Positions 3,760 through 42,399 of a stretch of 42,399 nt of DNA are shown piece by piece. A model generated the notes under the pieces. That model was not told the DNA's origin and did no database searches. It was given only the letters and a program-made list of their open reading frames with translations. Within the stretch, counting starts at the first letter, position 1. Every line of letters begins with the position of its first letter. The stretch comes from Flavobacteriales bacterium (GTDB lineage: Bacteria; Bacteroidota; Bacteroidia; Flavobacteriales_F; PHOS-HE28): positions 1 to 42,399 of the forward strand of contig JAGNUG010000022.1 of the NCBI GenBank assembly GCA_017987115.1, in the 5' to 3' direction. A program made the position numbers and the translations under genes.

Positions 3760-6294
3760 TTACTGCTTCACAAAGCGATGTGATACCCGTTCGCCATTCA
3801 CCTTGGTAATGCTGATCAGGTACATGCCTTGAACAAGCCCACTGATATCCAACGTGGTGCGGTCGTTGGTTACGCGTTCGTTATGAAGCAACCTTCCATC
3901 CAACGCTTGCAGCGTGAGCATGGCGTCCGGTTCATCCAGGAACACGTTCACTTCTTGGCTTGCCGGGTTCGGGTAGATGCTGAAACCATCCGTTTCCGTA
4001 GTTGCTATGCCCGTATTCACATCCACCGAGAAAATGCAAGGTTCCGTGATCACCGGCTCGTTGAAATCGAAGTAGATGTTCGCGGTATTCTCGATCTGTT
4101 CTCCATCCTGCAATGTGGTTTCAGGTTTGATCCTGAATTTAACGAAACCATGGCTGTTTGGCTCATCGCTTACGCTGTCCGGAAGGAAGATCGGGTCGAA
4201 AACGAAGACCAATAGTCCTTCATTCATATACCATGTGTTGGTGTGTGATCCGCTCAGGTATTCCATGGTGTGCCATTGGAGATCACTGCTCAGCGTATCG
4301 GTTATAACTACGCGCTCGGCAGGGTAGGTGCCAGTATTCTGGAACCGTATCGTGTACTCGATATATGCTCCGTTCTGGATCTGTACCGGCGACATTTCAG
4401 CAGGTGAAGCAGTCTTATCGTTCGGGTCAAAAGAACCAACGACCACACCTGTGTATGCACTGGAATTATCGGCAGGTGTAGTATCCGCAGCGGTGGGTAG
4501 TGCGCTGAACAAGTGATCCAATGGCGTTCCTAATGCAGTGCCGATCGGCGTAGTAAGTGTTACAACAACATCCCATTCATCGCCCGGCATCATCATTATG
4601 GACCAGGTTGCATCGGCAGCAGTGAGCGTAGCGGGGGCAATGGTGCTTGAATTCCAACTCTGGTCGCCATCGAATGTTAGGTTAACGTCTGCCATGGTAG
4701 CTTCGGTACCAATGTTCCTTACGCTCAAGTGCAGGTTGTTATCAAATCCAGGCCTTGCCTGTCCCGGATGAAATTGTACGACCAGATCATACACTCCTGG
4801 AATTTCTTGGTAGCCGATGTTGTTCAATGAGTCGATCTGCAAGGTCGATAGGGTAATTGTGCTTGCAGCAGTGGTGCGGTTATGATAAAGAACGTCTTGA
4901 CCATCCAATGTGAATGTGCCCACGTCCACTGGCAATACGTAATTGCCATTCGCATCCGGTGCGGTGAGGTAGTTTCCTGGAGTGGCCTCTACTGTTGCAT
5001 TCAAAAAAGGAACTTCGCCAGCGTCCATTGAACCGTTGCCATTCGCATCGTTGAAAACCATTCCTGATATTGCTTCTTGCATAATGGCACATGGTCCGGT
5101 GACCACATCACAGACCACAAGCGGAAATCCAAGTTCGCTCCATGCGGTATCCAACGCTGTTGGAATGTTCGGCAAGCAATTCAAATTATTGCCTGTGGTC
5201 TTGAGCTTGGCCATACCGTTCGGTAATGTGGGCAAACAGGAAAGAGCATTGTTCGCACACGTAAGCCAGTTCATGCTACTTGGCAAGGCGGGAATGGAAC
5301 CGAGTGCGTTATTGTCGCAATAGATGCGGTCCATGTTATTTGGCAGTGTTGGCAATGATGTGAGCTGGTTATGCGCACAGTTCAGAAAGTTCAACGAGTC
5401 GGGTAGTGCAGGCAATGATGTGAGGTTCAGGTAACCGCAGGAAAGACTTTCGATGGTGTTGGGAAGTGGAGGAAGGGCCGTGATATTGATCTCGTCACAC
5501 CATAACACTCTAAGTGCAGGGGGGAGTAGAGGAAGCACCAATGCTGGGTTCTCCCTGCAGTCCAATGAGACCATGCCAGTAGGCAAAGTTGGCAGAACGG
5601 AAAGATCATTGTTGATGCACATGAGATATTCCAATGTCGCTGGAAATGCTGGTAATGCAGTCAACTGATTGCTTGAGCATTCTATGGTCCAAATTGCGGG
5701 TGGTAGTGTCGGTAGAGCTGTTAGTGAATCGGAGGCACATCCCAATCGGCGTAAGGTCGAAGGGAGTGTCGGCAGTTGATGCAATGGGTTGATCGAGCAA
5801 TACAAAGCATCAAGGACAGGAGGCAAAGTGGGAAGACTGTCGATCTGGTTGGATGTACAATTGAGTTCGATCAAGCCTTGTGGTAGATCAGGGAGGCTGG
5901 TAATTGCATTTATCGAGCAGTCCAGGTCTTCCAAGGTGTTCGGCAAGGTGGGCAAGCTGGTGAGGTTATTGATCCGTAGATCCAAGATCTGTAAATTCGG
6001 TGGCAATTCGTTCAGCGTTGTTAAGGCGTTGTTGTTGGCTCTTAGTTCAACAAGACCGGTGAAATACTCCACACCGCTGAGGTCGACAATGCCCGCACAA
6101 CATATCGGCAGAACGGCAAGGTTCAGCACATCCGTATGGGTCGTATCCAGCACGTTACCGTTCATAGCGGCAGGTACGAAGAATTGGAGTTTGGTCACCA
6201 AGGCTGCATCAGGCACAACGAATTGTGCAACCGCTTGGTGTAATGAAAGAATGGAAAGAATGCAGGTGGCAAAAGCGGCTTTCAGCATGGACAT
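3760..6294 (-). CDS. Secreted leucine-rich-repeat protein with T9SS sorting domain
   Basis: An 844-residue protein taken from the ATG at 6294, because a good signal peptide starts there (MSMLKAAF..., cleavage near AVAQF). A longer start at 6345 would add 17 residues in front of it. Residues ~114-383 are fourteen 20-residue repeats of form LPxLPxxLxxLxCxxNxLxx, the short LRR type known from YopM/IpaH. Then come an SdrD-B-like segment (FNDANGNGSMDAGE), a beta-sandwich and a SFDPNDK...YTIRFQNTGT domain common in Bacteroidota surface proteins. The last ~75 residues are a type A T9SS sorting domain (SIYPNPA ... RFVKQ). It is expected at the cell surface or in the medium, likely in binding or adhesion. 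It follows the efflux operon by 58 bases. Confidence 0.9.
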   Translation of the reverse strand: MSMLKAAFATCILSILSLHQAVAQFVVPDAALVTKLQFFVPAAMNGNVLDTTHTDVLNLAVLPICCAGIVDLSGVEYFTGLVELRANNNALTTLNELPPNLQILDLRINNLTSLPTLPNTLEDLDCSINAITSLPDLPQGLIELNCTSNQIDSLPTLPPVLDALYCSINPLHQLPTLPSTLRRLGCASDSLTALPTLPPAIWTIECSSNQLTALPAFPATLEYLMCINNDLSVLPTLPTGMVSLDCRENPALVLPLLPPALRVLWCDEINITALPPLPNTIESLSCGYLNLTSLPALPDSLNFLNCAHNQLTSLPTLPNNMDRIYCDNNALGSIPALPSSMNWLTCANNALSCLPTLPNGMAKLKTTGNNLNCLPNIPTALDTAWSELGFPLVVCDVVTGPCAIMQEAISGMVFNDANGNGSMDAGEVPFLNATVEATPGNYLTAPDANGNYVLPVDVGTFTLDGQDVLYHNRTTAASTITLSTLQIDSLNNIGYQEIPGVYDLVVQFHPGQARPGFDNNLHLSVRNIGTEATMADVNLTFDGDQSWNSSTIAPATLTAADATWSIMMMPGDEWDVVVTLTTPIGTALGTPLDHLFSALPTAADTTPADNSSAYTGVVVGSFDPNDKTASPAEMSPVQIQNGAYIEYTIRFQNTGTYPAERVVITDTLSSDLQWHTMEYLSGSHTNTWYMNEGLLVFVFDPIFLPDSVSDEPNSHGFVKFRIKPETTLQDGEQIENTANIYFDFNEPVITEPCIFSVDVNTGIATTETDGFSIYPNPASQEVNVFLDEPDAMLTLQALDGRLLHNERVTNDRTTLDISGLVQGMYLISITKVNGERVSHRFVKQ
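5146..5955 (-). repeat. Fourteen exact 60-bp (20-residue) LRR units
   Basis: LPxLP begins every 20 residues without a single insertion or deletion across fourteen units. Cysteine occupies the same position in twelve successive units (the consensus LxC). DNA sequence differs between units while the period is kept, so the array is old and under length constraint rather than freshly duplicated. Confidence 0.9.
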
Positions 6295-6351
6295 TGTGTT
6301 CAGGGGTCGGGAAAGTGACGCGATCAACGCTGAATAGGTTGCCAAGGTGGG

Positions 6352-13339: not shown

Positions 13340-13554
13340 TGAAATGGGGGGCGTGTGTGATATCGTCCAAGCGAATGTACGGAGCGCGGAATGGAACTGT
13401 GATATTTAGTACAGGTTCAGGGCCAAATTACCCGGAATTAGTTAGCCTTGGTCCATGGGCGTGTTGCGCAGTGTGGGCGTGGTTCATAACTCCTGAACTG
13501 TTTTCTTGTTGACCCATGGTCATCGTTCCTACATTGTCCGCTTGCTTTGATCGT

Positions 13555-38376: not shown

Positions 38377-38983
38377 GGGTTCATGGTCAAGTAACTCAAT
38401 CAATTCTAGCTGAACGTCGAATTCATGGATAGAAAATGAATTGGTATTGTTCATCTTAGGTTGAATAAACACTGAGGATATCATGGGTTTGAATTGCCCG
38501 GTTTTATCCGATTTCTGGAACCTCGTTGGCATTGATCGACCTCTGCTGAATGATCATTGAGTCAGTTCCCTGGTCCGTAATCGAAGATACGCTCTTTCAG
38601 GCCCTGCATATGGAATGTGATCCAATGGAGGAAATCGGGTCGACTTGAATACCTAAGGTCCTGGAATCCCAATAGCGCTTTTTTGAGCAAGTATCATCGG
38701 CTACATCGACGTCCAGGGAGTGATGAACGGATCATTCGGTTCTCACTGAACGTTCAACCATTTGATCAAAGCTCGGACGGATGGTTAAAGCCATCAAAGA
38801 GTGCTTGTAACTCTTTGAGGCTCTATGAGGTATAAAGGTGTACACGTCGACATTATTGGTCTGTTGGTCGACGGAAAGTAAACATCCGATACCATGCCTT
38901 CCGGTCATTTGTATTTAGTTGATAGGCTGATCCATTGCGTCGTTGGGGCCGCTAAGGCAGCGGGACGATCCTGGGTGCAGTTA
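38377..38983. other. Long intergenic region without a clear gene (~600 bp)
   Basis: No reading frame with convincing coding character is found on either strand; the longest are short and unrelated to known motifs. Two GTCGAC hexamers frame a 15-base stretch near 38848-38874. From 38894 an in-frame extension of the giant repeat protein is open, but sequence before 38984 looks non-coding. No promoter could be chosen with confidence. Confidence 0.5.
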
Positions 38984-41900
38984 ATGAAGCATCCCTTGAA
39001 ACTGCGTGCACTGGGCCCGGTACTTGTACTCGTGTCGATCAGTGTAGCAGCTCAAACCACGTACACTTGGACAGGAGCAACAAATACAGCATGGAACAAC
39101 AACGCGAATTGGAGCCCTGCAACAGGATTCCCCAATGGCGCTGATAATGCTGTGATCGTGACTGCTTCGAATCTTCCTGTTCTCGATGCGAATAGGATAG
39201 TGAACAGCCTTATCGTGAGTTCCGGAATCCTCGACCTGAATGTACGGTCGCTTACTCTAACAGGTACGAGTAATTTCAACGGAGGTGCAGTGAACAATGG
39301 AACGCTTGTTCCGAATGTAACCGCGGGTGCCATCACGTTCGCGGGAACATCCTTTACATGTGCTATCACCGGTGCAACGGATATTGTCTATTTCAACGGT
39401 TCTGTCTTCAATGGTCCTGTGACCTTAACAAAGACCAATGGTGGTAACAACTACAGCAACGGCGGAAACACGTTCAATAATACATTGACGCTTACAGCTA
39501 CGGCAGGTCGTCAATACATGTACAATACTTCGAACGATGTGTACAACGGTAATGTCGTGCTCAATAGTTCGGGAACAAGTGGCGGGATCTGGCTAGGACA
39601 AAATACGGGATCCGCTACGTTAGCTTCCGGAATGACATTGAGTATCGGTGGTGGCGGTTTCAGTACTGGTTCGTTGGTTATCGGAAGATTGACCCAGCTT
39701 GGCGCAACCCCACAGAGCATTATTACGACAGGTACATCAACGTTGCACTTCAGGGATGGATCGATGTTCAACGGAGCAGTCACGGGAAGTGCGCCAGGTC
39801 TCTATATTCAGAACACGACATTCAATGCGAATGCAACGTTCAATAAGACCGGAAATACGAATGAATACAGCTCCGGTGGTTGTGTATTCAATGGAACCAC
39901 GGAGTTCTCGAATTCCGGAGTCGGCTTTCTCGCCCTTAATAATACCGGGGTAGATACCTTCAACGGTGATGTGAAATTCAATAGTTCGGGACCCGGTGGG
40001 TTCCGTTTTGGTTTTAGCGGTGGATCCTGGACGCAAGCATCGGGGTACACGATCATGATCGGTGCTGGTGGCTTTAGCGCAGGGGCACTTGGCCTTGGAC
40101 GTTTCACCCAAATAGGGCCGTCGAACATCACACTCGTAACGACCGGTACATCCAGCTTTTTCTATAGCCCGGGAACGATCTTTCTCGGTAATGTGGATGT
40201 TACTGCACCAACGGTCTTTCTGAATGGAGCAACCTTTTTCGGTAGTGCGAAATTCACCAAGACCGGAACCACTAATGATTACAGCACTGGTGGAAATGTA
40301 TTCAACGGTTCAATGGAATTCCTCAACTCCAGTAGCGCGCTCTTTTGTCCGAACTACACTGGGAATGATGTGTTCAACGGACCTTTATTGGTCAATAACA
40401 TCGGTACTGGCAGCATCCGCTTCGGATTGAACGGTGGAACCAGTACGTTGGCAACGGGCAACACCATCAACGTAGGGTCATCCGGATTCAATTCCGGACA
40501 ATTGTTCATCAATGGACTAACCCAGTTGGGGGCCACGCCACAAAATATTTCATTTACCGGGTCAGCAGGAATTCACTTTGGTCTTGGTACCATTTTCAAC
40601 GGCCCGCTTACGGTTGTTTCACCCTCGATAGGCCTCAACGGGTCAACGTTCAATGCGGACATCAACCTCACCAAGACAGGTTCATTGAACGATGTCTGTA
40701 CCGGAGGAAATACGTTCAACGGCACGCTCGATCTGACCAATACATCAACCGGTGCGATCTATTTATATCATTTCGCGAACGACAGCTTCAATGGTAATAT
40801 GCGTTTCGGCAGTACGTCCACAGGGCAGATACTTCTTGGGCAGTCCGCTGGAACCGCGACGCTTGCAGCAGGTTACACCATTGCAGTAGGAGCTTCTGGT
40901 TTCGTGGCCGGTATCCTCAACATTGGAAAATTGGACCAGATAGGTGGTACGGCCCAGGCTCTATCGCTGGGCAATAACGCATCATTGATCTTCAACGCGG
41001 GTACTGTCTTCAGCGGAAATGTAACAGCAAGCACCGGTAGGATCTATCTCAATGGCGCTACGTTCAACGGCAAGTTAACTGCGATCAAGACGGGACCTGG
41101 TAGTGATGCAAGCAATGGAGGGAACGTCTTCAATAACATCGTTGATATCACGAATACGTCCAACGGAATACTTTACCTGTACCATTATTATGACGACACA
41201 TACAGTAATGATATCCTGCTGAGCAATACGTCCGGTGGTCAGATCCTTATGGGGCAGAATACCGGTACGGCCACGTTGGCAGCAACGCGCGTAATTTCCG
41301 TTGGCGCTTCCGGGTTTGCCAGTGGAGTCCTAAGTATCGCACGATTGACACAAATAGGGGCAACAGCCCAGAATTTCGTGCTTGGCAGCCTTGCAACTTT
41401 GACCTTCGGTTTAGGGAATACGTTCAACGGGACAGTATCCAGTACTTCCGGTAGGCTCTATCTGAACGGCACTACGTTCAATGATTCATTCACTGCAGTA
41501 AAGACCGGTTTTGGAAGCGATGCAAGTAATGGTGGGAATACGTTCAATGGTCCAACCGAGATCACGCTTGCCTCAGCGGGGATCATGTACTTGTATCACT
41601 ATTCGGACGATGCATTCAACGACAACCTTCTTTTCAATAACACATCCACGGGGCAGATCCTCATGGGACAGTTTACCGGAAACGCGGTACTAGCAGCGGA
41701 TAAAGTGATCGCAATTGGAGCCGGTGGCTTCACTAATGGAATGCTGAACATTGGTCGATTTACACAAGTCGGACCTACGCCACAGAACCTTTCTTTGGGT
41801 AATGGTGCTGCGCTGGCATTTGGGACGGGTAGTGTGTTCAATGGCAATGTGATCTCCAATTCCGGGTCCTTGTTCTTTCATGGCACCACCTTCAATGGTA

Positions 41901-42399
41901 CAGTAAAATCCACCAAGAATGGTACAGGGAATGACACCAGCCGTGGTGGTAATGTTTTCAATGGACACACGGACATTACAATGACTGCTGCGGGCTTCAT
42001 TAACCTCTATTACACCGTGAATGATATCTATAATGCTGATCTCCGCTTGAGCAACACCTCATTCGGTCAGTTCCGGTTGGGACTTTCTACGGGTACTGCG
42101 ATACTGGCCGCGGGCTACACGATCGCTGTTGGTCCATCAGGATTCGCGCAGGGTGTACTTTCCATTGAGGAAATGACTCAGATCGGTTCGACACCGCAAT
42201 CACTTTCGTTGGGTAATTCCGCCTCCTTGACATACGGTGCCGGTACGACCTTCAACGGCGATGTAGTTTCAACATCGGGTTCGCTTTTCTTTGCCGGTGC
42301 CACTTTTAACGGCACATTATCGGCCACCAAAACAGGGGTCTCGAATGATTCCAGTCCGGGTGGAAATACCTTCAATGGCCTAACAGTGCTCACACAGAC
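38984..42399 (+). CDS. Giant secreted repeat protein (5' part), predicted beta-solenoid
   Basis: Open to the window end (1138 codons seen). The ATG at 38984 is preferred because it gives a compact signal peptide (MKHPLKLRALGPVLVLVSISVAAQ|TTYTW, written here as its ends). An in-frame ATG at 38894 would add 30 residues before it. After the signal comes a WTGATNTAWNNNANWSPA module common at the N terminus of Bacteroidota surface proteins. From residue ~164 a 138-residue unit repeats, rich in FNG, GG, T and N, as expected for parallel beta-helix adhesins. The C terminus, probably with a T9SS signal, lies outside the window. Role inferred: cell-surface or extracellular adhesin. Confidence 0.85.
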   Translation, partial: MKHPLKLRALGPVLVLVSISVAAQTTYTWTGATNTAWNNNANWSPATGFPNGADNAVIVTASNLPVLDANRIVNSLIVSSGILDLNVRSLTLTGTSNFNGGAVNNGTLVPNVTAGAITFAGTSFTCAITGATDIVYFNGSVFNGPVTLTKTNGGNNYSNGGNTFNNTLTLTATAGRQYMYNTSNDVYNGNVVLNSSGTSGGIWLGQNTGSATLASGMTLSIGGGGFSTGSLVIGRLTQLGATPQSIITTGTSTLHFRDGSMFNGAVTGSAPGLYIQNTTFNANATFNKTGNTNEYSSGGCVFNGTTEFSNSGVGFLALNNTGVDTFNGDVKFNSSGPGGFRFGFSGGSWTQASGYTIMIGAGGFSAGALGLGRFTQIGPSNITLVTTGTSSFFYSPGTIFLGNVDVTAPTVFLNGATFFGSAKFTKTGTTNDYSTGGNVFNGSMEFLNSSSALFCPNYTGNDVFNGPLLVNNIGTGSIRFGLNGGTSTLATGNTINVGSSGFNSGQLFINGLTQLGATPQNISFTGSAGIHFGLGTIFNGPLTVVSPSIGLNGSTFNADINLTKTGSLNDVCTGGNTFNGTLDLTNTSTGAIYLYHFANDSFNGNMRFGSTSTGQILLGQSAGTATLAAGYTIAVGASGFVAGILNIGKLDQIGGTAQALSLGNNASLIFNAGTVFSGNVTASTGRIYLNGATFNGKLTAIKTGPGSDASNGGNVFNNIVDITNTSNGILYLYHYYDDTYSNDILLSNTSGGQILMGQNTGTATLAATRVISVGASGFASGVLSIARLTQIGATAQNFVLGSLATLTFGLGNTFNGTVSSTSGRLYLNGTTFNDSFTAVKTGFGSDASNGGNTFNGPTEITLASAGIMYLYHYSDDAFNDNLLFNNTSTGQILMGQFTGNAVLAADKVIAIGAGGFTNGMLNIGRFTQVGPTPQNLSLGNGAALAFGTGSVFNGNVISNSGSLFFHGTTFNGTVKSTKNGTGNDTSRGGNVFNGHTDITMTAAGFINLYYTVNDIYNADLRLSNTSFGQFRLGLSTGTAILAAGYTIAVGPSGFAQGVLSIEEMTQIGSTPQSLSLGNSASLTYGAGTTFNGDVVSTSGSLFFAGATFNGTLSATKTGVSNDSSPGGNTFNGLTVLTQ
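39473..42399 (+). repeat. Exact 414-bp (138-residue) tandem repeats
   Basis: The GG-N-x-F-N marker phenylalanine codon falls at 39473, 39887, 40301, 40715, 41129, 41543, 41957 and 42371: seven consecutive intervals of exactly 414 bases. Each unit also keeps LxIGRLTQxGxTPQ and two later FNG sites. DNA sequence differs between units, so length is conserved while sequence drifts. The array continues beyond the window. Confidence 0.95.

Follow-up and report, generated by a model that had tools for sequence, protein, structure and literature searches.

Diverged 138-residue repeats in a Flavobacteriales protein are predicted to form a beta-solenoid and point to a family of T9SS-exported surface proteins

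The right-hand end of a 42,399-bp contig from a Flavobacteriales bacterium (G000:C97; the entire contig was analysed and is called the window here) carries a gene for a long repetitive protein, and it raises the question of what a protein built from units of exactly 138 residues is, and of what holds its units to that length. The open reading frame (38894–42397, forward strand) stays open up to the contig end, so that the gene runs off the window and is truncated. The in-frame ATG at 38984 is a likelier start than the upstream ATG at 38894; the residues after it read, as judged by eye, as a typical signal peptide (MKHPLKLRALGPVLVLVSISVAAQ, 38984–39055, forward strand), and homologues share this layout. 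The following stretch (39056–39301, forward strand) encodes an N-terminal cap, TYTWTG..AW....NWSP..GFP..ADNAVI, and then the first beta repeats, which do not follow the 138-residue period. Nearly all homologues have a W...W..NW(S/T) motif of this kind at their start, and the cap has no match in Pfam or NCBIfam.

To delimit the repeats we used a unit profile built from six units, which matches the open reading frame eight times, as six full units and one partial unit at either end. All lie on the forward strand: a partial first unit (39302–39610; profile positions 36–138, E 1.4e-20), the full units 1 (39611–40024), 2 (40025–40438), 3 (40439–40852), 4 (40853–41266), 5 (41267–41680) and 6 (41681–42094), all six backed by unit alignment and profile and the last three also modelled, and finally unit 7 (42095–42397; profile positions 1–100), which is cut by the contig end. 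The profile anchors are spaced exactly 138 residues (414 bp) apart in 7/7 consecutive distances, which bears out the seven exact 414-bp distances described in the earlier note, as well as its remark that the units differ at many bases: identity among the full units is 36–59% for protein and ~47–62% for DNA. Divergence on this scale argues that the array does not reflect recent copying or amplification, and it also accounts for the failure of Tandem Repeats Finder to detect the 138-residue array. The periodicity is far from chance, with autocorrelation peaks at lags 138, 276 and 414 only (mean BLOSUM scores of 2.07, 1.92 and 1.54) and values below -0.3 at all other lags. Within the unit, FN(G/D) sites fall at positions 93, 117, 53 and 71, which are exactly the relative residues 1, 25, 99 and 117 listed earlier. 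The solenoid is rich in G, T, N and S and contains 6.3% charged residues; despite this, a Lys at unit position 79 and an Asp at position 115 (e.g. window positions 41087–41089 and 41195–41197) are retained in 90% or more of the 57 aligned rows.

To predict the fold, units 4–6 were modelled with AlphaFold2 using an MSA of 56 aligned windows from the window gene and related loci, an alignment made from shifted repeat windows that may favour a regular solenoid. The prediction is confident (mean pLDDT 96.7, pTM 0.92) and consists of beta structure only, and the five models are alike in confidence. Strands start at unit positions 2, 19, 35, 57, 75, 97 and 121, giving seven rungs of 16, 17, 19, 18, 22, 24 and 22 residues with one rung counted for each strand that comes after an F-N-G-like position. 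The description of the 138-residue unit as seven stacked turns of a parallel beta-solenoid is therefore well supported by the model; the earlier proposal of beta-helix coils rather than disorder agrees with it, while the estimate of six or so coils per unit gives way to seven. A Foldseek search with this model gave no match below E 0.001, and its weaker matches, once realigned with VIA-align, are mostly parallel beta-helices. On VIA Z values, which are based on 41 chains of mostly one fold class, the nearest solved fold is EtpA (PDB 8vbb; Z 21.9 over 391 residues, rmsd 6.4); the HMW1 secretion domain (HMW1-PP, Z 19.1) and pertactin (Z 17.9 and 16.7, rmsd 3.8) also rank near the top, and UpaB, HxuA and Ag43 are further neighbours. 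The shared fold alone shows no function.

Next, we asked whether the repeat is catalogued. It has no match in Pfam, NCBIfam, PHROG or PDB sequences, in keeping with the earlier note, which had recognised no named domain; antibody matches at E 0.05 and PHROG matches at E >=0.09 were taken as chance. A literature search likewise found no description of this repeat. The unit profile finds homologues in many Bacteroidota. In a class-wide sample the family is present in 48/395 genomes and 35/196 genera, and a genome scan places a member in the cultured Ohtaekwangia koreensis (L070). Within the genus its presence is patchy, with strong matches in 2/35 genomes. Full-length homologues from the genus are L035/L045, with 2174 residues, 11 units and a TIGR04183 tail that scores 26.5 bits against a cut-off of 23, and L046, with 10 units. 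Two records titled Beijerinckiaceae (L056) and Chryseobacterium gleum (L049) also carry members with T9SS tails; these names look like mislabelled metagenome bins, and the L049 frame length, 1613, is also that of a genome placed with the L048 genus in the class-wide sample.

The architecture of the homologues is near-constant, with a probable signal peptide, a W..W...NW cap, the solenoid, a linker and a type A CTD. The type A T9SS sorting domain TIGR04183 is found in 38/38 homologues with a complete 3′ end (E up to 0.01), and the host genome (G000) has a SprA_N match (E 2.6e-159) and at least 150 T9SS sorting domains. T9SS export is well supported for the family and would presumably extend to the truncated window copy. 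The earlier description of a giant secreted protein is thus supported, and the T9SS C-terminal domain it anticipated is present in every homologue whose 3′ end is complete; the end of the window copy itself lies off the contig, and its continuation was not found when we searched the host assembly. Host contigs C196 and C65 were considered as the missing 3′ end and rejected: their C-terminal modules are similar but the preceding sequence differs, and C65 carries a separate complete gene. Otherwise differing T9SS proteins of the host (G000:C196:3-1139; G000:C65, L097:2196-6074; G000:C136, L099:1201-6795) have in common a module before the CTD, SYV.GP..K.G...F.FP.GKG...R...I, which gave no Pfam or NCBIfam match in the homologues scanned. 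The window also encodes a further T9SS sorting-domain protein of ~860 residues (3760–6345, reverse strand; CTD 3763–3978, 40.3 bits).

The homologues allow a second look at the constancy of unit length. The earlier note read the exact spacing as absolute length keeping and suggested a fixed superhelical turn as the constraint; neither holds across the family. Exact 138-residue spacing is local to the window fragment, since units vary from 136 to 139 residues in the same-genus homologues L045 and L046 and reach 257 in other Bacteroidota. Across Bacteroidota, 200 unit-to-unit distances fall into five classes of 136–147 (35 distances), 159–170 (95), 184–194 (42), 217–227 (10) and 248–257 (18) residues, with 0/200 in the gaps, which make up about half of the range; the count runs to a distance of 260 and takes loci that share one distance pattern only once, and it draws on related loci with class limits chosen post hoc. 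In the 164-residue units, profile positions ~90–138 match twice consecutively, so the added segment is similar to the rung beside it. Consistent with this, in a model of an L048 stretch with units of 164, 163 and 138 residues (pLDDT 96.4) each longer unit keeps the seven strand positions and adds an eighth strand 25 residues past the seventh, and the 138-residue unit shows seven strands only. The discrete classes are best explained by the gain of whole rungs, and their spacing suggests that the classes beyond 164 residues would also consist of whole rungs. Since the classes fit whole-rung steps, what is constrained is the length of the rung, not that of a 138-residue superhelical turn. The original observation is confirmed and its interpretation partly supported.

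Unit identity across species indicates how the arrays may have evolved. The best matches of window unit 1 (W1) are the first units of L045 (A1) and L046 (B1), with identities of 53% for W1-A1, 54% for W1-B1 and 62% for A1-B1. Simple colinear orthology of units was rejected: a counterpart is clear for the first unit and weak for the last, and most middle units have none. The start of the array looks stable, and its middle units appear to have turned over through unit duplication. Divergence between units is alike within and between species, which argues that the units are old. In both same-genus homologues a recQ-like helicase gene (75–77% identity) directly precedes the solenoid gene (L045 2–1720; L046 4502–6328), and in the window it lies on the same contig at 13516–15390, 23 kb from the solenoid gene, which suggests a local rearrangement or gene relocation.

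The closest analogue in build is EtpA, a two-partner secreted TpsA adhesin of enterotoxigenic E. coli, in which three repeats of 228 residues plus a partial repeat, of nine turns each, form an unbroken beta-helix, and which needs its repeat modules to bind blood-group A glycan (PMC11463764, PMC10284417). Both proteins build a continuous beta-helix from long, equal-length, multi-turn repeats. However, we detected no sequence relationship (16% identity in the structural alignment), and 228 residues in nine turns behind TPS secretion stand against 138 residues in seven rungs behind the T9SS. Pfam searches found no TPS (haemagglutination activity) domain in the window protein (E up to 1) or in four homologues (E 0.1), so the protein is not a TpsA, though it would work in an EtpA-like way; the long multi-rung-repeat beta-helix shared with FHA, HMW1 and EtpA is a likeness of fold, not membership. 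Pertactin and other type V autotransporter passengers (UpaB, Ag43; Z 12–18) likewise have parallel beta-helix passengers, but the repeats of the present family are much more regular and long-period; four full-length homologues scanned for a translocator barrel had none, their sole match being the T9SS sorting domain. With T9SS type A cargo (TIGR04183 / PF18962) the family shares the probable signal peptide and the type A CTD of all complete-3′-end homologues, but that class is defined by its sorting tail alone, whereas the repeat that makes up the passenger here has no match among catalogued families. Like the gliding adhesins SprB and RemA of Flavobacterium, its members would be large T9SS-exported surface proteins (PMC10202324); a Pfam search found no SprB repeats in the window protein.

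Collectively, we regard it as likely that the gene product is a T9SS-exported, surface-anchored beta-helix rod that probably serves as an adhesin or surface fibre. After T9SS export, the units would join unbroken into a single continuous helix at the cell surface, capped at its N terminus by the W..NW region; its fold neighbours suggest that it would be right-handed, with Phe and Asn of the F-N-G motifs, which recur at equivalent rung positions, probably stacking internally. At the C terminus, the linker and type A CTD would allow the PorU sortase to cut and anchor the protein. Such a rod would repeatedly display long, polar, charge-poor faces and loops along its length. Beta-helices rise 4.8 Angstrom per rung, so the rod of the 11-unit homologue would measure ~37 nm. 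Its reach may grow through unit duplication or, in other lineages, through duplication of single rungs, and by analogy with EtpA the repeated faces would give avidity and reach. A role in adhesion would follow from fold and architecture, and the patchy presence of the gene in the genus counts against an essential one.

Beta-helices also act as enzymes, ice-binding proteins and S-layers, and each of these offers another reading. The protein might be a carbohydrate-active, lyase- or glycosidase-like beta-helix or a polysaccharide-binding solenoid on the cell surface: its structural neighbours include PL6 alginate lyase, GH136 and phage tailspikes, many carbohydrate enzymes leave through the T9SS, and K79 and D115 stand out in an otherwise charge-poor protein. 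We consider this unlikely, because no lyase or hydrolase family matched the window protein or the homologues scanned at E 1 or 0.1, and the seven or more like units include no apparent specialised catalytic unit. Equally doubtful is a structural coat, S-layer-like or a gliding-related filament, rather than a specific adhesin. A regular rod with few charges would suit it, the structural neighbours include S-layer RsaA and curli CsgA, and S-layer and gliding proteins are T9SS-exported (PMC10202324); yet the distribution within the genus is patchy, and SprB-type adhesins have a type B CTD as against the type A of the homologues, although RemA is type A (PMC10202324). An ice-binding or otherwise water-ordering solenoid, to which a bacterial Flavobacteriaceae ice-binding protein and a Ca-dependent antifreeze solenoid among the weak matches might point, is highly improbable and was rejected, since the stacked T-x-T ladder is missing (in each column pair TxT occurs in three or fewer of the six units); Pfam gave no match to an ice-binding family.

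Returning to the anchored surface rod, its repeat family is uncatalogued among the libraries searched, while the kind of protein, a surface beta-helix, is already known; the family is a solid find and no new principle. More tentatively, with somewhat less than an even chance of being right, we propose a Bacteroidota-wide family of T9SS surface rods whose module is a stack of rungs, and in which whole rungs added or removed at a preferred site in the module would tune reach and display, giving quantised lengths (seven rungs as 138 residues, eight as 164, and more). Since a family model is missing among the libraries searched, such long surface proteins stand in many genomes without domain annotation. 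The family seems to be to the T9SS what the long-repeat adhesins are to TPS, and its quantised unit lengths would offer a natural series for testing the gain and loss of beta-helix rungs and the relation of surface reach to attachment.
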